From assembly GCA_937936355.1 (NCBI GenBank), contig CALDDM010000026.1:1-39149 (forward strand): DNA of 39,149 nucleotides, given 5' to 3'. This DNA comes from Minisyncoccota bacterium. GTDB lineage: Bacteria; Patescibacteriota; Minisyncoccia; Moranbacterales; GCA-2747515. This document shows, piece after piece, positions 5,289 to 32,090 of this stretch (its first letter is position 1; every line of letters starts with the position of its first letter). Both the position numbers and the translations under genes were made by a program. The notes beneath the pieces were generated by a model. The model ran no database searches, had not been told where the DNA came from, and was given only the letters and a program-made list of their open reading frames with translations.

Positions 5289-7928
5289 ATGATAAAACGT
5301 AGGACATTATCGACACTTCTTTTTATAACAGCGCTCTTGATTGCGGCTAGTTTTCATGGATTTGGCATGTTTCAATATCCATATTTTGAAAGTGACGAAG
5401 GAACATACATCTCACAGGCATGGTCTGTGGTAGAAGAGGGTGCGCTATCGCCATACACATACTGGTATGATCATCCGCCAGGAGGATGGATCTTTATTGC
5501 TGCATGGACGTATCTTTTTTCAGATGGCTTTTTTGCATTTGGATCCTCGATTGAAACAGGGAGGGCGTTTATGTGGGTAATTCACATCATGAGTGCTGCA
5601 TTTATATACGGCATTGTACGATATGTGACAGGACGTTCTCTGCCAGCCTTTGCTGCTGCAGTTCTCTTCTCAATATCACCCTTGGCAATCTATTTCCAGC
5701 GTCGCGTACTCATTGATAGTTTGATGATATTCTGGGTTTTAGCTGCAATGGTAGTGCTGTGCCAAAGATTTGCACATTTGCGTTTACGGCATTACATATT
5801 GAGCGGTGTCTTTTTTGCATTTGCGTGTCTTACCAAGCTAACAGCGGTCTTTTTTGGACCAGCATTTCTTTATTTTCTGTGGACGCACCACACACCGGTA
5901 CAAAGGTATTTTCGTATACCAATATGGATGATGATTTCAGGCATGTTTGTCTCAAGCTTCTTTCTCTTTGCAGCACTCTCTGGGGAACTTTTCAAGTCAG
6001 AAAGCGGTGAAAGTGTGAGTTTCATGGGAGCTGTCGAATTTCAGGCTTCACGATATGGTGGGGTATTTTGGGATCCAGAAAGTGCATTTGCAAGTGCGAT
6101 ACAGGACTGGGCAGAAAAAGACTTCCTTTTTACGCTGATGACGCTGACAATCCTTGTCGCTTCATTTTTTATGATTCCACTCTTTCGTAATGTGCGCTTT
6201 TTGCTGATCAGTATGATTCCGTATGTGTTCTTTTTGACAAGCGGAGGAGTAAACTTTAATTTTTACATTTTGCCACTGATCCCAGTTGTTGCAATGATTT
6301 GGGCGATTTACATACATAACATTTTGAGCTCGCTGGGAACAAAGATGTACACAACTGCCTTTGTATTTGTCATTGCCATCACCGGGCTTTATTATGGGAT
6401 TTATGGAACAAAGGATCATTTTGTACGTGACGAAACATCAAATCAAAAAGAGAGTACAATATGGATTAAGGAAAATTTAGACAATGAAGATGTGATACTG
6501 ATTGATAACTTTGCCTATGTGGATCTGCATGATCCAAGATACATCAATGAGAAGACGTTCCCAAACGCAGATTGGTATTACAAGGTATCTCGTGATATTG
6601 AAGTTGGCGAGCAAAAGTATGATCTTGATTGGCGCAACTTTGACTTCTTGAGTGTAACGCATGAGATGATGAAGCAAATTCAGGAGGGACAAGATCCAAT
6701 CATTCGAACTGCCTACGAGTATGGATATCCGTACAAAAAATGGACCAAGGATGCGACAGCCTTCATTGATTTGCCAAAAATGATCAGCACAAATGGTGAT
6801 TGGACAATGCTTTATCGCATCGCTCCCTCACCTCGCGAGACACTTTTTGACGCATGGAAAAAGTACAGAAGCCGCTCACTCTATAGCTACGGTCAAATGG
6901 TTGACTTGCAATCAAAGCAAACAACATCATCAGGTCAGGCTCAGGCGATGCTTCAAGCAGTAATGGTCAATGATCAAGATGGATTTAAGGGTATATGGTC
7001 GTGGACAAAAAACCAATTACAATGGCGAGTGCAGGATAGACTTTTTGCAAGTAGTTGGGTAAATGGGACAATTGGTAACGATGACAATACAACATCAGCA
7101 GATAGTGATATAGCAATGGCCTTGCTTCTCGCGGCACATACATGGGAGACGCCAGAGTATGCTGAGGCTGCGCAGGAGATCATAAAGAGTCTCTGGGAAG
7201 GGAGTGTGGTGACGATAAACGACCGATACTACATGCTGCCTCACAATAAAATATCAGCACAGCGGTATGAGAATAAGTATTTATTGAACCCCTCATATTT
7301 CTCACCAGCATGGTATAGAATTTTTGCAGAGGCAGATCCCCAAAATGACTGGAGCACGCTTGCAGATGATACATACAAAACATTAGAAGATATTTCACGC
7401 TTTTCTACAGCGAAAGATGGGCTACCGCCAAACTGGCTAGCAGTAGATGAGGCGACTGGAAGGTTGTCGAGCGCCAGTGTATATTTCTCTGACCCCCGGA
7501 TTGCTGATCAGTTTGGCAAGGATGCAGTACAAACTCTGTGGCGTATTTCTGTGGATGCAAAGTGGTTTAGGTCTGAAGATGCAGGCACATACTTAAAAAA
7601 GATCGTAGAAAGTCTCGACCGAAGACAGGAAGCATCACTACCTACAATTGTGGATAATGCTGGGCGAACGCAGAGTGTTGAACCTTCCTATGTCAACGAG
7701 GCTGGATATGCAAATGCATTAGCAGTGTTTGATACTATTGCAAATCAAGCATCACCAGAGGGCGAATCTCGAGCTGATCAATATTACGCAAAGACATTGG
7801 CGCAAGCATTTGACGATACGTACTCAAGACTGGGGCGGACACCGGCTGCACAAGAAGCTAACTGGGCGTGGCTCGGCTATGCTCTTTACAATGACGTATT
7901 TCGCAATGTTTTGCTCGACGAGTACTAG
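5289..7928 (+). CDS. GT39-type membrane glycosyltransferase fused to a GH8-like domain
   Basis: 879 residues in two parts. The N-terminal part (about 1-400) is a multi-spanning GT-C glycosyltransferase of the PMT/ArnT kind. It has the acidic ESDEGTY motif (D36, E37) in the first outer loop and YDHPPGG at 60-66. Such enzymes move a sugar from a polyprenyl-phosphate donor to an outside acceptor. Residues about 520-879 resemble GH8 endoglucanases (BcsZ/CelA fold): SSGQAQAM at 547-554, NDQDGFKGIWSWT, ADSDIAMALLLA at 604-615, LNPSYFSPAW and FGKDAVQ at 742-748. The family's proton donor, the Glu of SEGQ, is Ser548 here. The Asp of the GYDA-type motif is kept (D745). The domain may therefore bind glucan rather than cut it. 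The pgi-manC-manA sugar-nucleotide genes follow. Confidence 0.78.
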   Translation: MIKRRTLSTLLFITALLIAASFHGFGMFQYPYFESDEGTYISQAWSVVEEGALSPYTYWYDHPPGGWIFIAAWTYLFSDGFFAFGSSIETGRAFMWVIHIMSAAFIYGIVRYVTGRSLPAFAAAVLFSISPLAIYFQRRVLIDSLMIFWVLAAMVVLCQRFAHLRLRHYILSGVFFAFACLTKLTAVFFGPAFLYFLWTHHTPVQRYFRIPIWMMISGMFVSSFFLFAALSGELFKSESGESVSFMGAVEFQASRYGGVFWDPESAFASAIQDWAEKDFLFTLMTLTILVASFFMIPLFRNVRFLLISMIPYVFFLTSGGVNFNFYILPLIPVVAMIWAIYIHNILSSLGTKMYTTAFVFVIAITGLYYGIYGTKDHFVRDETSNQKESTIWIKENLDNEDVILIDNFAYVDLHDPRYINEKTFPNADWYYKVSRDIEVGEQKYDLDWRNFDFLSVTHEMMKQIQEGQDPIIRTAYEYGYPYKKWTKDATAFIDLPKMISTNGDWTMLYRIAPSPRETLFDAWKKYRSRSLYSYGQMVDLQSKQTTSSGQAQAMLQAVMVNDQDGFKGIWSWTKNQLQWRVQDRLFASSWVNGTIGNDDNTTSADSDIAMALLLAAHTWETPEYAEAAQEIIKSLWEGSVVTINDRYYMLPHNKISAQRYENKYLLNPSYFSPAWYRIFAEADPQNDWSTLADDTYKTLEDISRFSTAKDGLPPNWLAVDEATGRLSSASVYFSDPRIADQFGKDAVQTLWRISVDAKWFRSEDAGTYLKKIVESLDRRQEASLPTIVDNAGRTQSVEPSYVNEAGYANALAVFDTIANQASPEGESRADQYYAKTLAQAFDDTYSRLGRTPAAQEANWAWLGYALYNDVFRNVLLDEY

Positions 7929-11708: not shown

Positions 11709-12911
11709 ATGACACAGCTACATAAAGTAATAATTATTGCCTTTAGCTATGCAACATTGATGCTTGCTGGGGTTTTCGTCGCAGCTTTTGTACATCGGGA
11801 TGCATTTGATGTGCGAGAAGGCGCGCGCGTCGTTGAGGTCAACATCACAGAGGGTCCTCAAATGGAGACAGTGTGGATTCAAGCAGATGATGCCCATCAA
11901 CAACGCATGCTCGAAGAGCTACGCGAAATTGTGGAGTGGGCAGGACAAAATGATTTGTTTATAAGTGAAATGGGTGTACCAAGCAATGTCGACACGCTAC
12001 AATATCGATCACTCTTAGCAAAGTTTTTTGAGGCGGCAAACATTGCAGAGATGGACGTTACATCATGGGCAGTTGGCGAGAGTTGGGGTGATTATCCAAT
12101 AGCGCCTCATGTTGCTACGACGCTAGATGATAATGCTCTGTCAGATATATTTACAAAAAACCTAACAACGTCAGAATATTTTCGAGGTGTCAATCTTGCA
12201 GGTGCTGAGTTTGGTCTCAATCCAGATGCGAGAGGTGACATTGGTGAGATTGGAGGAAATCACACATATCACCAAGAAAGCCTGCTATGGCAAAAAATTG
12301 CAGACAAGGGGTATACACATGTCCGCTATCCATTCCGATTAGAGAGACTTTTTAACCCAGATACAGGTGAGGTGGAGTTTGCTGACAGCACAGTATTCTT
12401 GCAAGCGCTTGAAAAGGCGAGGGCAGCAGGCCTAAAAGTTATTCTCGACCCACACAACTACGGGGCTCTACAAGTAGATGGGCGAACGCATATCCTTGGA
12501 AGGGGTGCATTTCAACTGGAAAAATACGAAAAAATGATGACAAATATCGCAACGCTTATAGTAGGCTACGAAGACGTTGTGAGCATGATAGGTCTCATGA
12601 ACGAACCAAAAAACGTGAGACCACAAACATGGGAAACATACGCGCAAGCTGGATTAGACGCTCTACGATCTGCTGGATGGAAGGGCCAGATAGAGGTACC
12701 TACGGGAAAATGGCAGGGAGCAAAAGACGTGGCAAAGATTCACCCTAAGCCATGGATTATCGATCCACAAGACAACTTTACCTATGGCGTGCATCAATAC
12801 TATGACTCTCTTGAAGAAGGCTCTTACAAAGAGACATACGAGAACGACGAAAAAGAGATAAGAAGAAAGTATGAGCCTAGTAGCGTAGGCTTTGAGAGGG
12901 AAGTGCGATAA
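11709..12911 (+). CDS. Membrane-anchored GH5-like protein with circularly permuted barrel (1)
   Basis: 400 residues. A membrane helix (about 7-28) anchors an outside domain that carries all the near-invariant GH5 (clan GH-A) residues, in an unusual order. Nucleophile strand first: FISEMG with E87. Then the last-strand Trp (W120, SWAVGESWGDY). Then strand one RGVNLAGAEFG (159-169), Arg206 (VRYPFR), His249/Asn250 (DPHNY), the acid/base MNEP (N298, E299) and HQYYD (H362, Y364). The protein stops soon after, where a normal GH5 would continue to its nucleophile strand. This implies strands 7-8 were moved to the front. GH5 enzymes hydrolyse beta-1,4-glucans, mannans and related polymers; the substrate here is unknown. 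The next gene encodes a close paralogue with the same order. Confidence 0.75.
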   Translation: MTQLHKVIIIAFSYATLMLAGVFVAAFVHRDAFDVREGARVVEVNITEGPQMETVWIQADDAHQQRMLEELREIVEWAGQNDLFISEMGVPSNVDTLQYRSLLAKFFEAANIAEMDVTSWAVGESWGDYPIAPHVATTLDDNALSDIFTKNLTTSEYFRGVNLAGAEFGLNPDARGDIGEIGGNHTYHQESLLWQKIADKGYTHVRYPFRLERLFNPDTGEVEFADSTVFLQALEKARAAGLKVILDPHNYGALQVDGRTHILGRGAFQLEKYEKMMTNIATLIVGYEDVVSMIGLMNEPKNVRPQTWETYAQAGLDALRSAGWKGQIEVPTGKWQGAKDVAKIHPKPWIIDPQDNFTYGVHQYYDSLEEGSYKETYENDEKEIRRKYEPSSVGFEREVR

Positions 12912-13055
12912 CAAAAAGCAGGAAGTGTAATCTCCCATAACGGCATTGCTCCGAGTGAGTAAATGCACAAGTTCAAAAGAAGATTAAGCGCAAGGAATAC
13001 ACTAAGGATGTTATCGGTACATAAAAAAGAGAGGTCATACCAGTGATGAGAACTG

Positions 13056-13064
13056 TGGTAATAT
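13056..13064 (+). promoter_or_regulatory. Extended -10 promoter of the second GH5-like gene
   Basis: TGG-TAATAT ends 7 bases before the ATG at 13072, so transcription should start at or next to the ATG (leaderless message). The 160-base gap before it shows no terminator that I can support. Confidence 0.5.
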
Positions 13065-13071
13065 AGATACA

Positions 13072-14850
13072 ATGAAACAAAAAGCGGAAATAATTTTATC
13101 AAGTTTTGTGGTTCTAACCGTCGTTGGTTTTCTTGCGGCGTTGTGGTTTGGACGTGATAGTGAGCCACGTACAGTGAGGGTCGTCACTGAAGATGGCATG
13201 CTTACGGCACGCTCAGATGAATTTGTCACATCACGCATAGGCGAAGTTCGAGAGGTGAACATTTCCGATAAATTTTCAGATGAATTTGATCGACCAGTGA
13301 AGGAGGAGGAAGGTGAAGTTGTCACTGAAGATGATGACCAAGCGGATGATTCTGTACAAATAGCTCATGGCACGCAAAGTGATGTTGAAAAAGGATTTGG
13401 AATAGAGACGTTTATAGCTAAATGGCGTGCACAGGCAGAAAAGGATAAAAAAGATAAAGATAAGGAAGATAAAAATGAAGATAAGGAGGATGAAAGTGAG
13501 GTCAACAATAAAAAGCTGTATGTTGGCCGTGTAATTGGAACTGGTCGAACAGAGCCTTTCTACCCACGTGATGAAGATGACACGGTAAATCGTGAAGCGC
13601 GATCACTGCTTATACAAACGGTAGCTAATGCTGCGCGCAGCGGTTCATTTGGTCAGATCCAAATACCTGTGGCTGGAAGTGATGTCCCAACTGTCCCACC
13701 GCAACAAGTAACGATTACCGCAGACGACGCACACCAGAAACGAATGCTCGATGAAATGAAATCTCTGCAGATTTGGGGTGGAAATCACAAATTCATTTTC
13801 AGTGAGATGGGTGTGACAAACAATGACGATGATAGGCGGTACACAAATCTTGCACGTAAATTCTTCGAGGCTGCAAATGTAATGGGGTATAGCTCCATGG
13901 CATGGGCAACGGGTGATTGGTGGGGGAGCTACGGGGGATCACTCTCCAGCAATGGCACGATCCCCTCATCTGGGGTAGGGGCACCTTTTGTGCAAAACCA
14001 GTCCACAGACCTTTACGTAAGAGGCGTCAATCTTGCGGGTGGAGAATTTGGCATGAATCCTGATGCAGTGGGACGCATAGGCGCACTCGATGACACCTAT
14101 ACATATCACATCGGCTCTAAGCTCTGGAAGGCTATGAAAGATCGTGGCTTCACACATGCGAGGTTCCCATTTCGTTTCGAACGACTATTTAATGCCGATG
14201 GCTCATTTAACGCGGCAGATAAAGCGCTCTTTATGCGTGCAATTGCAGAAGCGCGCAACAATGACATCAAGCTCCTCCTAGATCCTCATAATTATGCTGC
14301 GATGCAGATAAATGGCCGTAAGGAAGTTTTAGGAGAAGGCGCTTTTACAGTAAGTCTCTTCAATAAAATGATGCGTAATCTTGGTCAGCTTGGTGCACAA
14401 AATGCAGACGTGATCGATATGATCGGACTCATGAATGAGCCCAAAAATCTCGCTCCATCAAAATGGGAGGATTACGCCCAGAGCTCACTGAGCGCAGTCC
14501 GAGCTGGTGGGTTTAAGGGTGTGATCGAAGTGCCAACCGGGAATTGGCAAGGTATTCAAGATGTACCGAGGATTCACCCAGGTGGTCCATGGATTAACGA
14601 CCCACTCGATAACTTTATGTACGGCGTGCATCAGTATTACGATGTGAATCACAGTGGGCACTATCAGTCATCGTATAGTGCAGATGAGGCTGAGCTTCGC
14701 AAAGATTATACGCCAGGAACTGTGACAGTGTGGAAGTACGGCAACGCCTCAAATGGTGCAACATACGAAGACTATCCATGTCCTCCAGAGTCAGACCACG
14801 ACGGCGACGGATGGGGCTGGGACGGCCAAAAAGGCTGCCGTGTGAACTAG
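13072..14850 (+). CDS. Membrane-anchored GH5-like protein with circularly permuted barrel (2)
   Basis: 592 residues. A membrane helix (about 7-26) is followed by a charged linker (about 60-160) rich in Asp, Glu and Lys that would hold the catalytic domain away from the membrane. The catalytic part repeats the order of the preceding gene: FSEMG (E245), MAWATGDWWG (W278), RGVNLAGGEFG (317-327), RFPFR (R364), DPHNY (H406, N407), MNEP (N455, E456), HQYYD (H520, Y522). After it comes a short C-terminal SDHDGDGWGWDGQKGC element. This is a DxDGDGWGWD-type calcium-binding loop closed by cysteines, common at ends of secreted carbohydrate enzymes. The two genes are clear duplicates; this one gained the linker and tail. 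Beta-glycanase activity is likely but the substrate is unknown. Confidence 0.75.
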   Translation: MKQKAEIILSSFVVLTVVGFLAALWFGRDSEPRTVRVVTEDGMLTARSDEFVTSRIGEVREVNISDKFSDEFDRPVKEEEGEVVTEDDDQADDSVQIAHGTQSDVEKGFGIETFIAKWRAQAEKDKKDKDKEDKNEDKEDESEVNNKKLYVGRVIGTGRTEPFYPRDEDDTVNREARSLLIQTVANAARSGSFGQIQIPVAGSDVPTVPPQQVTITADDAHQKRMLDEMKSLQIWGGNHKFIFSEMGVTNNDDDRRYTNLARKFFEAANVMGYSSMAWATGDWWGSYGGSLSSNGTIPSSGVGAPFVQNQSTDLYVRGVNLAGGEFGMNPDAVGRIGALDDTYTYHIGSKLWKAMKDRGFTHARFPFRFERLFNADGSFNAADKALFMRAIAEARNNDIKLLLDPHNYAAMQINGRKEVLGEGAFTVSLFNKMMRNLGQLGAQNADVIDMIGLMNEPKNLAPSKWEDYAQSSLSAVRAGGFKGVIEVPTGNWQGIQDVPRIHPGGPWINDPLDNFMYGVHQYYDVNHSGHYQSSYSADEAELRKDYTPGTVTVWKYGNASNGATYEDYPCPPESDHDGDGWGWDGQKGCRVN

Positions 14851-16887: not shown

Positions 16888-16923
16888 TCTCTTTTGATCG
16901 TCACCCACGACAACCAAAAGAGA
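16888..16923 (+). other. Perfect 9-bp inverted repeat
   Basis: TCTCTTTTG pairs with CAAAAGAGA, and an inner CGT/ACG extends the structure. It lies in the non-coding stretch between the terminator at 16866 and the one at 17076. Confidence 0.6.
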
Positions 16924-17075
16924 AACAAGAACAAAAAAGACAAGTCAAAGCAAGGTCACCCGCGACCAAGCAGCGAATTGTTAAAAAAGAGAAAAATGAT
17001 TCCCCAGATCATCACAAAAAACTTTGCGAGCAAAGCGTCTCATGACGCAGTTCCATGCAGTACAAAGAAGAAAAA

Positions 17076-17100
17076 GGCGACGAAAGAGTCGCCATTTTTT
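17076..17100 (+). terminator. Intrinsic terminator before the giant surface-protein gene
   Basis: GGCGAC-GAAAGA-GTCGCC is a perfect 6-bp GC-rich stem followed by ATTTTTT. Its position argues that codons upstream of 17155 are not translated. Confidence 0.75.
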
Positions 17101-17154
17101 GGTGTGAAAATTGTGCCATATGCTGGGAATATTTGTGAGGTTGTGGGAGGAAAA

Positions 17155-20100
17155 ATGCGCTCAAACAAAATCATTAACAATAGCCTGCAGGTTGTAGGCA
17201 TCTTCTCTCCCGAGGTGATGCCATGGGAAATACATTATTGTAACCTGGAGAAAGTGCAAAAAACCTGGGGTGCACATGCTTATGCGCAGATGCACAAGAA
17301 AAAAATGGTCTATACAGATCGGTGGGGGTCTGAATGTGGCGACAGGGACGCATCAAATAATCCTTACTATGGAGGAGGTAAGAGTGCTGCGGACATTATA
17401 AGGCATGCGAAGAAGGAGGTGTCGTACACAAAAAGAGGTGGTGCTCCTAAAATGCATGCATCACGGAGGGTAGGGAGTATTATAGCGCGCATGCATCAAG
17501 TTACAGCGAAAAAAAAGGACAAGAAAGAGGTAGGTGCGCAAGAAGGTGGACTGCAGAATATCCAACATCAAGAAATTGATACGAAGAAAGATAATGCTGT
17601 AAAAATCATCATCCCGCACACATTGCAACATCCAGATGCTGACGTTATTGTGTATGGGCAAATAGCTGATCGCATAGAGGAAATCGATCAGGGTAGTGAT
17701 AAAAATGATGAAGATAGTGTGCAAAGCTCACAAGATGAGCGGACTTTTGATGGTGTGGCAGATAAAACAAGTGAAGATAGACAAGGTCAGGGTAAGGGGC
17801 AGAAGCGCGTGTGGGTACGTGATGTCTTGCCACGCGCTGTGGGGGCGCCTGGTGTAGCATTACTTCTCCTCCTTACCATGGTCTTGTCTGTAGATATGAT
17901 GATTCCGTTTCTTGATGCCGAGGTACGCGTTGGTAACTACACACAAGAGCGAACACAGGTAGCAGAAGGTCTCACATTACTTGCTTATGAAAACAAAACA
18001 CAAGACACACTGACGTCAGTGACAGACTTTAACAGTGGGGAATATACACAAGATCAATTTGTTGTAGGGCAAGACGATGTGAGCACGCTAGCAGTAGGTG
18101 AGATCACATTAAGTCATTACGGTGACACGCCACCAGATTTAAGTGAAATTGATTGGTGGGATGACGATAGCGATCCAGCGACACTGTATAACTGGCAGTA
18201 CAGACGATGCTTTGAGATTGATAACACTGGCAGCAGTGATGACCTCGATCAGTATCAAGTATATCTCGACGTAGATACACAGACCGTGATCGGAGATGCT
18301 AAAATGCAAGCCAATGGAGCAGATATACGATTCATTGGTGAGGGTGGTGATATACTGCCACATTTTATTGCTGATGACATAAACACTGCAACAACAAAAA
18401 TATGGGTACAAATCGACGATATTACTGCGGGTGATACAGAGTCTCTTTGTATGTACTATGGAAATCCAGGTGCTTCAGATAGTGCAAGTCGGGAAGATGT
18501 TTTTACATATGATAACCCAAGAGAGATATATCATGTCGTTGCTGATACAGCATCAGGCAGTACAACAGATTTTACAAGCTATAGTGATAACAATGAAATC
18601 TCAGTAGCAGCCTATAGTGACACACTCGATGCGACTGATTTTGTCTCGTATCCAACGGGTGTCTCGGGGTTATTGACTGAAACATCATCGGTAGCAACGA
18701 CACATCCGATTAATGCATCATACAGAGCGAATGGCGTAGACAATATTGTGCCAGTATCAGCGGCAGACACGCAATTTGCTTATGCAACAGAGCGACTCAC
18801 TAATGATTTTTCGATCATATCACCATGGTGCAATGCATCGTTAACATTTGAAAATGGATTCGGAAACAATATTCTCGATACGACATCAAACACGCTATCA
18901 CCTTTTTCAATTCCATCAGGTGGTTCATTGACAATCACGACCAATGACACAGCAGCCAATGGTATAGCAAATGGATCTATGGTGATTATCGAAGAAGTGG
19001 GTGATGATTGTCCAGTACTGATCACGCACCATGGGAGTGCAGGTGGTGACAGCATGACATTGTTTGGCGCAGATGCGCAGTGGTATGGAGTGGGATCAGG
19101 AAGTATGCATGTCGGCATTCTCGAGGACACAACAAGTGTGACAGTCTACAAGAGCAACGGAACAACTGTCGGTCCTACGGTCTATGGTCGTGGTGATGAT
19201 TTCACAATCAACGACACGGGATCACAAGGATCAGAAGTGGCACATCGCGTTGTTGCAGACAAGCCAGTTGGCGTGCATTCACGCGGTGACGGCGATGGTG
19301 GTGATAGTGTGACATTTCTCCCATCTGCTGAGTTAGGATACAAATATTACATTGCAGATACATCACAATACATTGCAATTGCAACACTTGCTGGTGTCAC
19401 AACAAAGGTTGAGCTTTATCACAATGGCACAAGCTGTGGCACAGGAACACCAGATGACACAGATACAGTAACAGCAATAGGTGATGCACCTGGGAAAGCA
19501 TATTTTGGTCTCACAACTGGAGGTGACCATATACCAGCTGGCGCATGTATCGTAGCTGACCAGCCAATTTTTGCATACAGCGAGTACAATGGCGCAGGTG
19601 ATGAGCATAACATCTGGAACGAGAAACAAAACCGACAGTCTATTTCTCCTGCACCAACATATACAGTAGGTACTGAGGAGATTGGCTTATGGAGTATTGA
19701 TGGGACAAGTAATTGGTTAAGGCGTGTGCCAGTAACGATAGCAAATAACGCATCTGCAGCAATTGATGAGTATCAGATATCAATAGATCTAGGAGCTGAT
19801 ATAGAAACGCTCTTTGGAAAGACGCAAGAGAATGGAGGGGACATTCGCGTAGCGGGACCTCTAGGTAATGGTACGGACAATGTGCAGTATGCACTGGATT
19901 CTTTCGATCATGTGAGTGCCAATGGTACACTATGGATCAAAACGCCTGCTGTGTCAGCTGCAAGCAGTGTGACAGTGTATGTTTATTACAGTCCAATTGG
20001 TATGGATATTCAGGGAATGAATCCATTGTTGTGGCTTGATGCGGCGGATAGTGGATCGATAACCCATACGCTAGGAGCGGTTAATGCATGGAATGATAAA

Positions 20101-22767
20101 TCCGGTAATGCAAACCACGTGACACAAAATCTCGCAACAGATCAGCCAACTGTGATAAGTGATGGGACGCAACAAGTGATCGCATTCAATGGGCAATACA
20201 TGACAGATCCAGATGGCATCTGGGGCAGCATCACACATAATGACTCGTACATATTTACAGCCTATAAAAACCTCCTTCTACCAGAAAGTGGAACTTTGTT
20301 GAGTGAGCGTATCCAAGCAGGGCAATACGAAATAAAGGCTCCAGATGGTGTGAATGTTTCGTATCAACCCAATAGAAATTCTCAGGGAAGTATCAGTGGC
20401 TTGTATGGTGGAGACATAACAGATTATCACACTATGCGCTTTGATGCGCATGCTGGAGGATCGAGAAATATAACAAGGGACAATCTCGTCACACTCGCAT
20501 CCGATAATGGAGGAGAGGCATTCAGAGGGCAAAACCGCGCTTTAAGCATTGGAGCAGAGTCAAGTGGATCTAATCCACAAAGCATGAATATGGGAGAGGT
20601 AATTGCATTTTCTGGGACCTTAACAAGTGCCGAAGTGGAGGATATAGAGAATTATCTGGCACAGAAGTGGGTAACCGGTCCAACGACAACACTCACGACA
20701 ACTGGAGACTACAGCGGAATCTGGCAAACAACGGTATCAAAACCAAATTACTACATCGTAGACTCGCGAGGTGCGGACATTGGGTCGACATTTGTGATAT
20801 CTGCTGCGGATGGCAATTCTGTGGTGGCTGGTGGAACATCGACAACAATTGATGAAGGACAAATGACCACAATTCCTCCAGGTATCGGCATTGAGCAAAC
20901 AGATAGCTATAGTGTTACTGGGCCTCTGAGCATAGGATTTGATGCAGACACAACAGACGCTGCACTGCCCATAAGCTATGCAGGCACTGAATTTCTGATG
21001 CGCGTGGGGCGCAATACAGACATTTTTAGTTTTCACGCGCCATTTTCAGCTGCAAGCATTGAGATTCAAGAGAGCTCTGCAACTGGATTTACAACGCTGC
21101 AAACAGTTGTGATCGCAAGTGGAGCGACAGTGACTGTCCCACAAAACATCACAAACAATAGAGTGTTCAAAATCATATCCGACGAACCAGTGTTGGCGTT
21201 TCACAGAAATAGTACAAACGATTCCAAAATTCTGTATCCTGCAGATCAAGCCTTTGTGCAGTCATCCGATCAGTACGAGTTGTATGGAGTTGGATCAGGT
21301 GCTGTGCAGCTTGCAGCTGGAACAAGTACAACAGCAACGATTTACAGAAGCAATGGAACCAACACAACCGTGACACTAGATGCTGCGTCAAACTTTGGTT
21401 ACTCAGAATCTGGGGCAGGCTCTCAAGGTGCTGCATATGGCTATCGCATTGTCTCAGATGATCCTATAGCGGCAAGTTCCTACGCAGATGCTGATGGTGG
21501 TGAGACCGTCGTCTTTGTTGGGCAAAAAGAATTTTCACAAGAATACATTATCCCAAATCCTACGCAGTATATGAGTATAGTCACACGCGACGCAGGCACC
21601 GAATGTCGCGTATATGATGTATCTGGTGCAGCAATGACAGCAGGGCCGGCAACGATGGATAACATTCCACCACAAACAGCAGGGGTGCAAACGCTGCCAT
21701 ACCCAAATCGCATTCATATCGGTGGTGATGATACAGGTGATGGTGCATTTTTTGCGGCGGGGTATCGGCTTGAGTGTGATGATCCTGTTTATGCCTACTA
21801 CGAACATCACCTAGGTGGATTAGTGACAGATGAAACATCATGGCTTACATGGCCACAAGCACGATCACGCAATCACGTAGAGCCAAAAATAGGCGATATA
21901 AACACTGCAGCAGAGGAAGGCTTATACGTTGAGAGTGGATTTAACGGGAGTGCGCCAGAGGCTACTGCAACGTATATATTTGATACATCATCACAGACAC
22001 ATGGTGAGCATACGTACTGGCAAGACGTCACATGGGACGAGCAAATAACAGATCGCGGAGCACTTGGTAGTGTGCAACAGATAAAGATCGAGACTGCATA
22101 TGCAGATGGACCAAATTGCACATCGGCAACATACTCATCATACACACAGGCGACAGGCACCCAGACACTTGCAACATCAAGTAGTGCACAGCCACATCAC
22201 GATATCATTAGCAACAAAAAGAAAGCATTGATCAGTGAAGAGGCAAGTGATCACGATTGTCTTGCAGTGCGTATTACGCTGGCGACAGGCGATCCAGCAC
22301 TGACACCGAAACTGGAGGCGTTTACAGTTGGATACTACACCCCAGACATCTTGGCCGATCAGCTTAGTACGCCAAATATAAACGTACCCGGTACTGTTGG
22401 GTCAGAGAATGTACGAAAGCGTATAGTAAAGGCATTGACAAGCGATGCAGATCTTGCTGGATCACAAGCGAATCTGTCATTTACAGGTGTAAGTGACAGC
22501 GCACCGTTCTCGACCGCAGATTTAGAGCTTTATGAGATAGCAACAAGCACAACTAATCCACAGTTTACATTTCCTACATTTCCTTCTGGGGAGTTAACTG
22601 CGGGTACAAGTTCAGTACTGGATGCAAGTAACGATATTGCAATCTACTACACCGGACAAAGAAGCGCGGGAAATGACGAGCAAATTGATCTCCGATTTAA
22701 CCTCGACATCATCGGCGCCGGAGGGCCTGCAATCACCCGAGATTTCACGCTTAACATCGAAGGCTAG
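17155..22767 (+). CDS. Giant surface protein with DUF2341 and LamG-like domains
   Basis: About 1,870 residues. I chose ATG 17155 because GGGAGG lies 4 bases upstream and a terminator at 17076 precedes it; the frame stays open back to a TTG at 16894. A long basic, Lys-rich section comes first, then one membrane helix (near 17860-17910) and a long outside part. DUF2341 domains occur near 18180-18500 (WQYRRCFEIDN to ESLCMYYGNPG) and again near 19710-19990. The second runs into a concanavalin-like LamG region (LLWLDAADSGS, AWNDKSGNANH). Two copies of a unit marked by YGVGSG, SNGT and ADKPV/SDDPI flank it (about 18800-19600 and 21000-21800). The long outside region suggests adhesion or glycan binding. 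No sorting motif is seen at the C-terminus. A start further down, just before the helix, is also possible. Confidence 0.72.
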   Translation: MRSNKIINNSLQVVGIFSPEVMPWEIHYCNLEKVQKTWGAHAYAQMHKKKMVYTDRWGSECGDRDASNNPYYGGGKSAADIIRHAKKEVSYTKRGGAPKMHASRRVGSIIARMHQVTAKKKDKKEVGAQEGGLQNIQHQEIDTKKDNAVKIIIPHTLQHPDADVIVYGQIADRIEEIDQGSDKNDEDSVQSSQDERTFDGVADKTSEDRQGQGKGQKRVWVRDVLPRAVGAPGVALLLLLTMVLSVDMMIPFLDAEVRVGNYTQERTQVAEGLTLLAYENKTQDTLTSVTDFNSGEYTQDQFVVGQDDVSTLAVGEITLSHYGDTPPDLSEIDWWDDDSDPATLYNWQYRRCFEIDNTGSSDDLDQYQVYLDVDTQTVIGDAKMQANGADIRFIGEGGDILPHFIADDINTATTKIWVQIDDITAGDTESLCMYYGNPGASDSASREDVFTYDNPREIYHVVADTASGSTTDFTSYSDNNEISVAAYSDTLDATDFVSYPTGVSGLLTETSSVATTHPINASYRANGVDNIVPVSAADTQFAYATERLTNDFSIISPWCNASLTFENGFGNNILDTTSNTLSPFSIPSGGSLTITTNDTAANGIANGSMVIIEEVGDDCPVLITHHGSAGGDSMTLFGADAQWYGVGSGSMHVGILEDTTSVTVYKSNGTTVGPTVYGRGDDFTINDTGSQGSEVAHRVVADKPVGVHSRGDGDGGDSVTFLPSAELGYKYYIADTSQYIAIATLAGVTTKVELYHNGTSCGTGTPDDTDTVTAIGDAPGKAYFGLTTGGDHIPAGACIVADQPIFAYSEYNGAGDEHNIWNEKQNRQSISPAPTYTVGTEEIGLWSIDGTSNWLRRVPVTIANNASAAIDEYQISIDLGADIETLFGKTQENGGDIRVAGPLGNGTDNVQYALDSFDHVSANGTLWIKTPAVSAASSVTVYVYYSPIGMDIQGMNPLLWLDAADSGSITHTLGAVNAWNDKSGNANHVTQNLATDQPTVISDGTQQVIAFNGQYMTDPDGIWGSITHNDSYIFTAYKNLLLPESGTLLSERIQAGQYEIKAPDGVNVSYQPNRNSQGSISGLYGGDITDYHTMRFDAHAGGSRNITRDNLVTLASDNGGEAFRGQNRALSIGAESSGSNPQSMNMGEVIAFSGTLTSAEVEDIENYLAQKWVTGPTTTLTTTGDYSGIWQTTVSKPNYYIVDSRGADIGSTFVISAADGNSVVAGGTSTTIDEGQMTTIPPGIGIEQTDSYSVTGPLSIGFDADTTDAALPISYAGTEFLMRVGRNTDIFSFHAPFSAASIEIQESSATGFTTLQTVVIASGATVTVPQNITNNRVFKIISDEPVLAFHRNSTNDSKILYPADQAFVQSSDQYELYGVGSGAVQLAAGTSTTATIYRSNGTNTTVTLDAASNFGYSESGAGSQGAAYGYRIVSDDPIAASSYADADGGETVVFVGQKEFSQEYIIPNPTQYMSIVTRDAGTECRVYDVSGAAMTAGPATMDNIPPQTAGVQTLPYPNRIHIGGDDTGDGAFFAAGYRLECDDPVYAYYEHHLGGLVTDETSWLTWPQARSRNHVEPKIGDINTAAEEGLYVESGFNGSAPEATATYIFDTSSQTHGEHTYWQDVTWDEQITDRGALGSVQQIKIETAYADGPNCTSATYSSYTQATGTQTLATSSSAQPHHDIISNKKKALISEEASDHDCLAVRITLATGDPALTPKLEAFTVGYYTPDILADQLSTPNINVPGTVGSENVRKRIVKALTSDADLAGSQANLSFTGVSDSAPFSTADLELYEIATSTTNPQFTFPTFPSGELTAGTSSVLDASNDIAIYYTGQRSAGNDEQIDLRFNLDIIGAGGPAITRDFTLNIEG

Positions 22768-25349: not shown

Positions 25350-27317
25350 ATGCAAAATCCAAAAAAAGAAAAAGTGAAAACGAACACGACAAAAAAACAA
25401 TTTCGTGGTCTTGGTGTTTCTGCAATCCGTAGTGGCATCTATAGTTTTGTGCAGGACACTTCAAATCCTGGGGATACTTTTATTATCCAAAAATCGGCTG
25501 ATGGTCGATCTTTTGCGTTAAAAGACGTGGATGCACGTATTAGCAGTATCAATCTTCCACTCGATACAATTGAGTCATGCAGTAATTTTGCACTGGCTGA
25601 GCATGATGAGTATTATTACCTAACATATAAAACGAAAAAGAATGGCATAGCGCAGCTTGTGTTGGCGCAATCAAGTGACATGGTTGCGTGGGAAAAGATG
25701 GCAGTTGTGACAGCTGGAAATCAGGACGAGCATATAAGCGGGTGTGTTGTATCGAACTATACACACAAAGATCATCTCATGCTCTATGCTGGCGGTAGCC
25801 ATCTGTCACTTCATGGAAGCAACAATCTCATAGATTGGTATGCAGAGGCACCAGATTTACTCGGTGATCGCGTATCAGATGGAGAGGACATTACCATCGC
25901 GAGTATCGATGTATTGAATGAAGGTATACTAGTTGCATATTACACGCATACACGTCAAAAAAAAGGTGCAGAGATATCCGATACAAACGGAAGCACATTA
26001 AATCCACAAGATTATCGTCTACGCGCAGCTCTTTTTGATAAGGAAAATCCTGCAAAGTTATTGTGGCATAGCGAAGAATCTCTGCAGACAGTAGACCGGA
26101 ACACGCAAGACACCAAGGACCTAGGATCGCCCTTTGGTCTCGTGCTGCGTGATGATGCATTTATCTCATATTGGCAGGGAGTATCGGGAAGGCTTTATCT
26201 TTTCTACCATGTAGTATCCGGATCGGTACTTGATGAGGCTAAAGACGGAGATCGTGAGCTATGGAGTAGAGAAGAGTTGCCACAACTCGAACGCGTACCA
26301 GAAAATCCCATCATGGCACCCAAAGCAGAACACGCGTGGGAGTCAAAGGCGGCATTCAATCCAGCTGCGATATTTGTCGATGGAGCATTTCATATTATCT
26401 ACAGAGCAATTGGAGAAAATGATGTATCTGTTCTAGGTTATGCGAGAAGTGAAGATGGCATCAATATTTCATATCGTGATGAGCACCCTGCATATGTGCC
26501 ACGTGAGATTTTTGAAGGAGCACTGCAGCCACTAAATAAGGTCGACCACAAAAACTGGTCGCCCTACATGTCTGGCGGTGGTGCATGGGGAGGGTGCGAA
26601 GACCCACGACTCAACAGAATCGACGATCGTATTTACCTGACATATGTCGCCTATAATGGATGGCAGCCACCACGCCTCGCAATGGCATGGATCACCATAG
26701 AAAACTTTTTAAAGAGAGATTGGAAGTGGTCTAAGCCGGTCCTGATTTCACCGCCAGGTGTTGTATCCAAGAGTGGGTCAATGTTGCCAGAAAAAATTGA
26801 TGGGCATTATGTCTTTTTTCATCGTGTATTCCCTGACATCCACATAGACTTCATTGACGACCTTAATCGTTTTGATGGAAGGACATTTTTCCTTAAATGC
26901 CGCAGTAGTATTAAAGTTCGTGAAGATCATTGGGATGCTGGGAAGTTTTCTATGGGTGCGCCACCAATGAAAACGCGTGATGGATGGCTTGTTATTTACA
27001 GTGCAGTGTCTGGCCGGCAGGAGTGGGAGGGTAGTGATTTACGCTATAAAATTGGCGCTATGTTGCTAGACCTGAAAGACCCAACAAAAGTCATCTACAG
27101 ATCACATGACGCAATCCTTAAGCCAGAAGTACACTATGAGAATGATGGGGCAAAATATGGCATCATTTATCCATGTGGAGCAGTAATCAAAGGTGAGAAG
27201 TTATTTGTGTACTATGGAGGGTCAGATGAGTTCACATGTGTCGGTACGGCAAATCTGGATAATTTTCTTTCAAAGCTAAAAACAACGGGCAAAATAGAGG
27301 AGAGTCTAACGATATAG
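25350..27317 (+). CDS. GH130-family beta-mannoside phosphorylase/hydrolase with extra propeller
   Basis: 655 residues, no signal peptide, so probably cytoplasmic. The C-terminal half (about 312-640) is a GH130 five-bladed beta-propeller. NPIMAPK opens it, GCEDPR carries the likely catalytic Asp (D418), and VFFHRV (H491, R492) matches the phosphate-binding pair of the phosphorylase group. The last blade has YPCGAVIKG and VYYGGSDE. The N-terminal half (about 20-300) looks like a second propeller but has no GCEDPR motif, so it may serve binding or assembly. GH130 phosphorylases cleave beta-mannosides with phosphate to release mannose-1-phosphate, which could feed ManC. The next gene encodes another GH130 protein 29 bases later. 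Confidence 0.85.
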   Translation: MQNPKKEKVKTNTTKKQFRGLGVSAIRSGIYSFVQDTSNPGDTFIIQKSADGRSFALKDVDARISSINLPLDTIESCSNFALAEHDEYYYLTYKTKKNGIAQLVLAQSSDMVAWEKMAVVTAGNQDEHISGCVVSNYTHKDHLMLYAGGSHLSLHGSNNLIDWYAEAPDLLGDRVSDGEDITIASIDVLNEGILVAYYTHTRQKKGAEISDTNGSTLNPQDYRLRAALFDKENPAKLLWHSEESLQTVDRNTQDTKDLGSPFGLVLRDDAFISYWQGVSGRLYLFYHVVSGSVLDEAKDGDRELWSREELPQLERVPENPIMAPKAEHAWESKAAFNPAAIFVDGAFHIIYRAIGENDVSVLGYARSEDGINISYRDEHPAYVPREIFEGALQPLNKVDHKNWSPYMSGGGAWGGCEDPRLNRIDDRIYLTYVAYNGWQPPRLAMAWITIENFLKRDWKWSKPVLISPPGVVSKSGSMLPEKIDGHYVFFHRVFPDIHIDFIDDLNRFDGRTFFLKCRSSIKVREDHWDAGKFSMGAPPMKTRDGWLVIYSAVSGRQEWEGSDLRYKIGAMLLDLKDPTKVIYRSHDAILKPEVHYENDGAKYGIIYPCGAVIKGEKLFVYYGGSDEFTCVGTANLDNFLSKLKTTGKIEESLTI

Positions 27318-27346: not shown

Positions 27347-29314
27347 ATGAGAATAAAACGATTTCCCAATAACCCAATCCTAGGACCTGATCGAGATCTC
27401 GACTGGGAAGCACAGGCTGTGTTTAATGGTTGCCCAGTCAAGAGCGATGATGGCACCTACCACATGGCCTATCGTGCGCACTCATACGAACAAGAGCACG
27501 AAGGTGTTTTGATGGAACTTTCAACAATTGGCTACACAAAGAGCAAGAGTCCATATGAGTTTAATGGAGAGCGAACACAGCTCATTTACCCAGAGAAAGA
27601 ATGGGAGAAGTTTGGGTGTGAAGACCCGCGCGTAACAAAGATTGACGATACGTACTATATTATCTATACAGCGTTGTCAGATTATCCACACTCACCTGAT
27701 GGTATAAAACTCGGCGTAGCACTTACCAAAGATTTCAAGACAATCGAAGCAAAACACCAGGTCACACACTTCAACTCAAAGGCGATGGCCCTTTTCCCAG
27801 AGAAAATTGACGGCAAATACTGGGCAATTCTTACTATGAACACAGACAGGCCGCCTGTGCGCATAGCAGTAGCAAGCTTTGATCGCATAGAGCAAATGTG
27901 GGATAAGGCATATTGGGACCAGTGGCTTACAGAGCTTGATAAGCACACTGTTCACCTACAAAGAAAATTAGAAGATCACATCGAAATTGGTGCGCCACCT
28001 GTAAAGACCGGCGATGGGTGGTTGTTGCTCTACTCATATATTCGCGGTTATCGCACTGATCACCCAGTATTTGGTGTGGACGCAGCACTTCTGCGACCAG
28101 ACAAACCACGTCGTGTCATCGGACGTACGGCACACCCATTGCTTACACCACAAGAAACCTACGAGATGCATGGAATGATCCCAAACATTGCATTTCCTTC
28201 TGGTGCGCTCATAGAGGGTGATACTTTGCACTTTTACTATGGTGCAGCAGATAACGCAGTCGCAATTGCAGACATGTCTGTGTCAGAGGTAATTGACCAA
28301 GTACGACACAAGAAGTGTGAAGACTTTGTGGGGGAGGGGGCGATGCCAGTACAGCTCGAAAGGTTTGAAGGAAATCCAATTATCGAGCCAAACGCAGACA
28401 ATCCATTTGAGTCAAAGTACACACTTAATCCAACAGCAATACGCGATGAAGATACAACGTACATTCTCTATCGCGCACAAGATGAAGATGATACATCATA
28501 TGTAGGATTTGCTGCTGGACCAGATGGATTCCATATCGAAGAAAAGCTTGATCATCCAATCTATGTGCCGCGTGTTCCTGAGGAGGTGCGTGACGAACCG
28601 GGATTCTCAGGATGTGAAGATGCGCGTATCACACGTATGGGGGACAAGTTCTATATGTGTTACACGGCTTACAATGGCTATGATCATGCACGCGTTGCTT
28701 TTACATCAATCGATGTGCAAGACTTTCGTGATCGCAAGTGGGACAAGTGGGCACTACCACAAATCATTTCTCAGCCAGATGAATTTGACAAAAATAGTTG
28801 TCTCGTCGAAGAAAAGGTCGAAGGCAAATACATGTTCTTTCACCGCCTCCATAACGATATATGGATCGATACAGTAGATTCACTCACCTTCAATGAAGGT
28901 CAGTACATAAAAGGAAAGGTGCTCATGAGTCCACGTCCGGAGACGTGGGACAGTATTCGCATCGGAATCGCTGGGCCACCAATTAAAGTCCCAGGACAAG
29001 GGGAGGGTGGCAACGAATGGGTGCTCATCTACCACGCAATCTCTGCGCATGACGGCATGTACCGTTTGGGTGCAGCGCTGCTCGATCTCGGTAAGCAAGA
29101 AGTCCTCAGTCGACTTGACTATCCGATCTTGACACCGGAAGCTGACTACGAGAACAATGGCCTCAGGCCTGGAACGGTATTCTCGTGTGGACAGATTGTG
29201 CTTGATGACATTCTGTACGTCTACTATGGGGGTGCTGATCAAGTAACGTGCGCTGCAAGTATGGATTTCCAGTGCCTCATCGACGCCCTCAATGAGAAAA
29301 AAGAACAAGGCTAA
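27347..29314 (+). CDS. Tandem GH130-GH130 protein
   Basis: 655 residues, cytoplasmic, with two complete GH130 propellers. The first (about 1-325) has RFPNNPILGP, GCEDPR with D93, and AFPSGALIEG. Where phosphorylases have an FHR-type phosphate motif it reads KYWAILTMNTDRP. That resembles the GH130 branches that lost phosphate binding and act as hydrolases. The second (about 333-645) has RFEGNPIIEP, GCEDAR with D425 (Pro to Ala) and MFFHRL, so phosphate binding is kept. The two halves may therefore differ in reaction type. It is in one operon with the preceding GH130 gene (29-base gap), and a strong terminator follows. Confidence 0.87.
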   Translation: MRIKRFPNNPILGPDRDLDWEAQAVFNGCPVKSDDGTYHMAYRAHSYEQEHEGVLMELSTIGYTKSKSPYEFNGERTQLIYPEKEWEKFGCEDPRVTKIDDTYYIIYTALSDYPHSPDGIKLGVALTKDFKTIEAKHQVTHFNSKAMALFPEKIDGKYWAILTMNTDRPPVRIAVASFDRIEQMWDKAYWDQWLTELDKHTVHLQRKLEDHIEIGAPPVKTGDGWLLLYSYIRGYRTDHPVFGVDAALLRPDKPRRVIGRTAHPLLTPQETYEMHGMIPNIAFPSGALIEGDTLHFYYGAADNAVAIADMSVSEVIDQVRHKKCEDFVGEGAMPVQLERFEGNPIIEPNADNPFESKYTLNPTAIRDEDTTYILYRAQDEDDTSYVGFAAGPDGFHIEEKLDHPIYVPRVPEEVRDEPGFSGCEDARITRMGDKFYMCYTAYNGYDHARVAFTSIDVQDFRDRKWDKWALPQIISQPDEFDKNSCLVEEKVEGKYMFFHRLHNDIWIDTVDSLTFNEGQYIKGKVLMSPRPETWDSIRIGIAGPPIKVPGQGEGGNEWVLIYHAISAHDGMYRLGAALLDLGKQEVLSRLDYPILTPEADYENNGLRPGTVFSCGQIVLDDILYVYYGGADQVTCAASMDFQCLIDALNEKKEQG

Positions 29315-31861: not shown

Positions 31862-32041
31862 ATGGCACAAGACAATCTCATTAGACTTGTTTCGCAGGGA
31901 GACGAAGAGGGAAATGGCAAAGGTCACACGATCTACGCACACAAAAACACCAAGAAGCTCCGTGGACACAAGATCGAGCTCAAGAAATTCAATCCAATCG
32001 TCAAAAAACACACAGTCTACAAAGAAAAGCCAAAGAAGTAA
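31862..32041 (+). CDS. rpmG: Large-subunit ribosomal protein bL33
   Basis: 59 residues, short enough to be missed by length filters. NLIRLVSQG at the N-terminus, the central YAHKNTKKL and the C-terminal KIELKKFNPIVKKHTVYKE follow the bL33 pattern. None of the four zinc-ribbon cysteines is present, so this is the zinc-independent (C-minus) form. A longer acidic-Gly insert (GDEEGNGKGH) replaces the usual first turn. It shares a promoter with rpmB, which begins 49 bases later. The protein binds near the E-site of the large subunit. Confidence 0.9.
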   Translation: MAQDNLIRLVSQGDEEGNGKGHTIYAHKNTKKLRGHKIELKKFNPIVKKHTVYKEKPKK

Positions 32042-32090
32042 GTGCTGATCGCAGAGATTGATACTAAAACGTTATTATTATTGCAAAAAG

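Follow-up and report, generated by a model that had tools for sequence, protein, structure and literature searches.

Two adjacent genes of a Minisyncoccota bacterium encode GH5_5-like proteins with a circularly permuted barrel

Introduction

GH5 is among the largest and best-studied cellulase families, and the order of its motifs serves for its recognition. Two adjacent genes in a 39,149-nucleotide stretch of DNA from a Minisyncoccota bacterium (GCA_937936355.1, contig CALDDM010000026.1; the whole stretch is hereafter called the window) encode proteins in which the GH5 motifs stand in a rotated order, which raises the question of whether they represent a natural circular permutation of the GH5 barrel or a truncated enzyme behind unrelated sequence.

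Both open reading frames (ORFs) lie on the + strand directly after a phosphomannose isomerase gene, with 160 bases between them. The first, cpGH5-a (P1, 400 aa, 11709..12911), begins with an N-terminal membrane helix or signal anchor, followed by the permuted barrel. The second, cpGH5-b (P2, 592 aa, 13072..14850), consists of a membrane helix, a charged Lys/Glu/Asp-rich linker (13438-13500, +), the permuted barrel, and a Cys-flanked DGDGWGW tail; AlphaFold models were obtained for both. The stretch after the P2 barrel at 14794-14820 (Cys-flanked DHDGDGWGW) is possibly a calcium-binding or surface-attachment motif.

Rotated order of the GH5 motifs

The chains of P1 and P2 run alpha6-beta7(Glu)-alpha7-beta8(Trp)-alpha8, then beta1 to beta6, and end. 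A residue check found the motif positions of the initial annotation exact in P1 (E87, W120, RGVN at 159, N298-E299, and H362-Y364) and in P2 (E245, W278, RGVN at 317, N455-E456, and H520-Y522), and the rotated order it proposed for both proteins was confirmed by swapped phmmer domains, a profile, a doubled-sequence test, two AlphaFold models, and two further homologues. In P1, the alpha6-beta7-alpha7-beta8-alpha8 segment occupies 11892..12158 (+; phmmer, profile search, AlphaFold, and doubled-sequence test), with E87, the predicted catalytic nucleophile, at 11967..11969 and W120, the conserved beta8 Trp seen in the alignments, at 12066..12068. The beta1 to beta6 part follows at 12177..12806 (+; RGVN, R206, H249-N250, N298-E299, and H362-x-Y364; Pfam, phmmer, AlphaFold, and Foldseek) and contains the predicted acid/base E299 at 12603..12605. 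The corresponding P2 segments lie at 13729..13995 (+; profile search, AlphaFold, and doubled-sequence test) and 14014..14643 (+; Pfam, phmmer, AlphaFold, and Foldseek), the former including the predicted nucleophile E245 (13804..13806; phmmer and alignment) and the latter the predicted acid/base E456 (14437-14439).

The swap is directly visible in the phmmer alignment with RBcel1 (4ee9), of which residues 5-215 matched P1 159-378 and a second domain, 231-288, carrying the nucleophile and the Trp, matched P1 75-132. E87, E299, and Y364 of P1 were thereby paired with Glu245, Glu135, and Tyr201 of RBcel1. In RBcel1, Glu245 acts as the nucleophile, and the discussion of its -1 subsite also covers Glu135 and Tyr201 (PMC8900817).

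The Pfam Cellulase profile (PF00150, curated cut-off 23.5 bits) matched P1 with 94.9 bits (7.6e-27) and P2 with 84.0 bits (1.6e-23), covering only profile positions 23-212 and 25-206 of 272, respectively, and the match of a third gene of the same genome ended at position 202. The match stopped at 202-213 in 3/3 own-genome copies, and strong matches from other Patescibacteria (>50 bits) extended to 266-272. That Pfam sees only the beta1-beta6 part is what would be expected if the proteins were not permuted at all and a truncated GH5 domain had been joined to an unrelated N-terminal domain with a chance ExG and W, or if the assembly were at fault. However, the profile end absent from the Pfam matches of P1 and P2 sits at their N-terminus instead, where significant beta7-beta8 homology was found by phmmer, by a dedicated HMM, and by the doubled-sequence test.

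The HMM of the beta7-beta8 part was built from 39 canonical homologues and searched against 977 ORFs drawn from the window and from two related loci. Its top four matches were P1 (1e-4), L003 (4e-4), P2 (0.01), and L005 (0.12), the values of P2 and L005 being weak alone; each protein was matched once, at the N-terminus, and no C-terminal match was found in the four permuted proteins. For the doubled-sequence test, each permuted protein was aligned to 21 canonical sequences, each written twice in tandem. The score rose in 20-21 of 21 cases per permuted protein with a mean gain of 24-34, indicating that the permuted chain is collinear with the canonical chain across the junction. Forty shuffles of the N-terminal parts gave mean gains of only 1.6-1.9 and a maximum of 11, so that the mean gain of each permuted protein exceeded the maximum of its 40 shuffles, the result taken here to mark a natural circular permutant. 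The part labelled nt preceded the part labelled ct in 4/4 permuted proteins, and ct preceded nt in the canonical homologues in which both parts were detected.

The canonical GH5 order, in which the nucleophile follows the acid/base, is replaced here by beta7-beta8-beta1...beta6, and P1 and P2 therefore belong to GH5 by homology, as a permuted variant. The proposed complete residue set was likewise borne out: all eight GH5 active-site residues (R206, H249, N298, E299, H362, Y364, E87, and W120 in P1) do not vary among the four permuted proteins. The evidence supports a natural circular permutation of the GH5 barrel with new ends in the beta6-alpha6 loop; the cut was located in this loop in both proteins, in agreement with the placement after beta6 suggested at the outset.

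Predicted structures of P1 and P2

Structure prediction, which the initial annotation had proposed as a check, returned eight strands in rotated order for both proteins (AlphaFold, pTM 0.81 for P1 and 0.85 for P2); the alignment behind the models included canonical fragments. The first part of the P1 model comprises a new strand (52-58), alpha6 (62-78), beta7 (82-88, with E87), alpha7 (96-112), beta8 (116-120, ending at W120), and alpha8 (143-150). It continues with beta1 (159-162), beta2 (204-209), beta3 (243-248), beta4 (291-295), beta5 (327-331), and beta6 (357-363), and ends with a helix (377-384) and another new strand (392-398). The P2 model shows the same order of elements. A Glu taking over the nucleophile position at the C-terminus would have argued against the rotation, but none is seen, since beta6 is followed by just a short helix and a single strand, with no beta7-beta8 match. 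The rotated strands in both models add to the N-terminal homology and to the order common to four genes from two assemblies, and the non-permuted explanation is already refuted by these homology, strand, and four-gene tests unless the homology is spurious, leaving it an extremely slim chance.

In Foldseek searches, GH5_5 structures were among the top matches over about 220 columns, the best RBcel1 chains giving 2.1-2.6 A rmsd with a target TM-score of about 0.6. As Foldseek depends on sequence order, the columns correspond to the part still collinear, and a match of this extent is expected if 6/8 barrel units are collinear.

By homology, a closed active site is predicted in which E87 would face E299 within one barrel. 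A permuted chain could also be domain-swapped: its N-terminal beta7-beta8 would then complete the barrel of an adjacent chain and make the active enzyme an oligomer. The P1 linker between beta8, alpha8, and beta1 (121-158) is of low confidence and leaves the in-chain placement unproven; loops 121-180 of P1, adjoining the active site, have a block pLDDT of 43-67. Nevertheless, the confident strands and pTM values of the two monomer models speak against the swap, as do the alpha8-like helix (143-150) and the short linker into beta1, which are what a simple join needs. Oligomerization by swapping is thus considered quite improbable, and the single-chain barrel is preferred.

Distribution and phylogeny

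Four permuted GH5 genes were found in two metagenome-assembled genomes (MAGs), three of them in this genome, where they account for all GH5 matches, and one in another MAG of the genus (1/2 other genomes), in which the gene also follows a phosphomannose isomerase gene. The arrangement had been described as stable rather than an assembly error, and its recurrence in the third own-genome gene and in another MAG agrees with this; an order common to four genes in two MAGs rules out an assembly error or a frameshift. Searches of the remaining order and of samples of the class revealed no permuted GH5, and the sample of the phylum contained only two matching GH5 genes, both canonical. Judged by match position in the ORF, the permuted signature occurred in 0/29 GH5 loci of other Patescibacteria. 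In about 40 GH5_5-type relatives from Alphaproteobacteria, Melainabacteria, Roseateles, and others, the order was canonical in every case that allowed both parts to be located.

No relative was found in viral contigs, and phages and plasmids gave beta1-beta6 matches only. A phage-labelled, unannotated contig from human faeces (MT835628.1, 9535-10185) carries a GH5-like beta1-beta6 match to P1 with 30% identity.

A tree built from the beta1-beta6 part placed the four permuted proteins in a single clade (100/100) at the end of a long branch, with P1 and the gene from the second MAG as a pair; identity to P1 fell to 38%. A single permuted clade implies, most simply, that the permutation is older than the duplications in the genus.

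Predicted catalysis and proposed origin

The products of both genes are very probably beta-1,4-glucan hydrolases that are exported or anchored at the surface and that arose through a single circular permutation of a bacterial GH5_5-type endoglucanase. The chain would start at alpha6, pass through beta7 with the nucleophile Glu, beta8 with the Trp, and alpha8, enter beta1 through a short linker, and end after beta6, while still folding into the usual (beta/alpha)8 barrel. Two-step retaining cleavage is envisaged, in which E299/E456 would protonate the leaving group and E87/E245 would form the glycosyl-enzyme. The eight active-site residues are kept in proteins down to 38% identity, which makes ordinary retaining beta-1,4-glucan hydrolysis most likely, and the permuted proteins are accordingly predicted to be retaining endo-beta-1,4-glucanases.

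The long branches in the tree and the extra charged and Cys-flanked segments of P2 would also fit a rotated barrel whose catalytic function was lost and which now acts as a surface protein, either structural or for glycan binding, and the activity is so far predicted from sequence. Yet the same eight residues stayed invariant in all four proteins despite this divergence, which makes the loss improbable and leaves a working hydrolase as the favoured reading.

For the origin, an in-frame tandem duplication followed by loss of the outer parts is plausible. No remnant of a second copy was found around the P1 and P2 genes, and no duplicated intermediate was seen. A weak match at 31885-32058 was rejected as such a remnant, being a chance frame over apparent small ribosomal protein genes.

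New ends and the membrane anchor

In RBcel1, Glu204, Asp205, and Arg226 of the beta6-alpha6 stretch touch the sugar at the plus subsites (PMC8900817), and RBcel1 216-230 has no counterpart in P1 in the phmmer alignment. The permuted proteins share a conserved A-x-D-A-H-Q-x-R start and a D-E-x-E-x-R end, and a predicted strand flanks each new end, both strands being absent from canonical relatives in the alignment. In P1, the N-terminal strand (residues 52-58, 11862..11882, +) is predicted with a block pLDDT of 95; a similar segment is present in 4/4 permuted proteins, and canonical GH5_5 sequences lack a counterpart. The C-terminal strand of P1 comprises residues 392-398 (12882..12902, +), and the P2 strands comprise residues 211-217 (13702..13722, +) and 549-555 (14716..14736, +), all from AlphaFold. 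The two P1 strands possibly pair with each other, and such new flanking strands may clasp the new ends.

With both new ends in the beta6-alpha6 loop of the catalytic face, the hydrophobic N-terminal helix would be attached on this face, placing the anchor beside the plus subsites rather than at the barrel bottom. A more far-reaching and rather doubtful proposal is that this is the first natural GH5 circular permutant, fixed with three paralogues in one Patescibacteria genus, and that chain ends on the catalytic face re-attach the anchor beside the acceptor subsites and add a terminal clasp, altering contact with surface or nascent glycans.

Comparison with known permuted and canonical enzymes

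The leading PDB matches of P1 and P2 by sequence and fold include RBcel1, a GH5_5 enzyme (PMC8900817), and its relatives, and the two proteins are closest to characterised GH5_5 members as judged by PDB matches. The beta1-beta6 part shares 25-28% identity with the endo-1,4-beta-glucanases RBcel1 (4ee9, 5ljf), Pseudomonas stutzeri Cel5A (4lx4, 6r2j), and XacCel5A (4w7u). Common to both groups are the RGVNLAGAEF-type beta1, the HN, NEP, and HQY motifs, the nucleophile and Trp segments, and the predicted fold, whereas P1 and P2 differ in their rotated chain ending in the beta6-alpha6 loop, the extra terminal strands, and the anchor at that loop. L049, a GH5_5-like gene from another patescibacterium, is of the same phylum and sequence type, but it ends with beta7-beta8 in canonical order and does not fall near the permuted clade in the tree, its own placement being unsure.

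Permuted barrels are already known from the GH70 glucansucrases, whose barrel is circularly permuted relative to GH13 and for which a permutation-per-duplication model exists (PMC4919382). The same route is proposed here for the permuted GH5 proteins, although GH70 belongs to another family and clan and is cut before alpha3 instead of alpha6; furthermore, the permuted GH5 lacks bulky inserted domains and is confined to one genus among the genomes searched. MalS of GH13_19 is another glycoside hydrolase with rotated domains (PMC10223318), but its permutation moves the C domain around the barrel and not the strand order in the barrel core. The absence of a described natural GH5 permutant, as initially surmised, held in the open-access literature searched, within which the GH5 case is apparently unreported.

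This natural rotation indicates that the GH5 barrel tolerates new ends in a plus-subsite loop, adds to GH70 a second permuted barrel in which the emergence of such proteins can be studied, and provides a ready starting point for engineering. In addition, a Pfam match cut short in a tiny genome may point to a permuted rather than a broken enzyme.

Genomic neighbourhood

The products of genes neighbouring P1 and P2 include phosphoglucose isomerase, mannose-1-phosphate guanylyltransferase, phosphomannose isomerase, an aldolase, and the GH130 and PMT_2-GH8 proteins described below, which together point to glucan and mannose metabolism. P1 and P2 may serve the nutrition of the cell or the trimming of its own polysaccharide. 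A role in cellulose synthesis through a cellulose synthase in the genome was rejected, only weak general matches below the cut-off being found.

Two adjacent 655-aa proteins (25350-27317 and 27347-29314) each apparently contain two GH130 domains; their closest models are beta-1,2-mannobiose phosphorylases, with scores below the cut-offs of those models, and together with the nearby mannose genes they may form a beta-mannan cycle. An 879-aa protein (5289-7928) represents an unusual transferase-hydrolase fusion of an N-terminal PMT_2 (mannosyltransferase-like) membrane domain and a C-terminal GH8 domain closest to BcsZ. Finally, a 1957-aa ORF (16894-22767) with two DUF2341 matches follows a small protein that looks exported and lacks any Pfam match.
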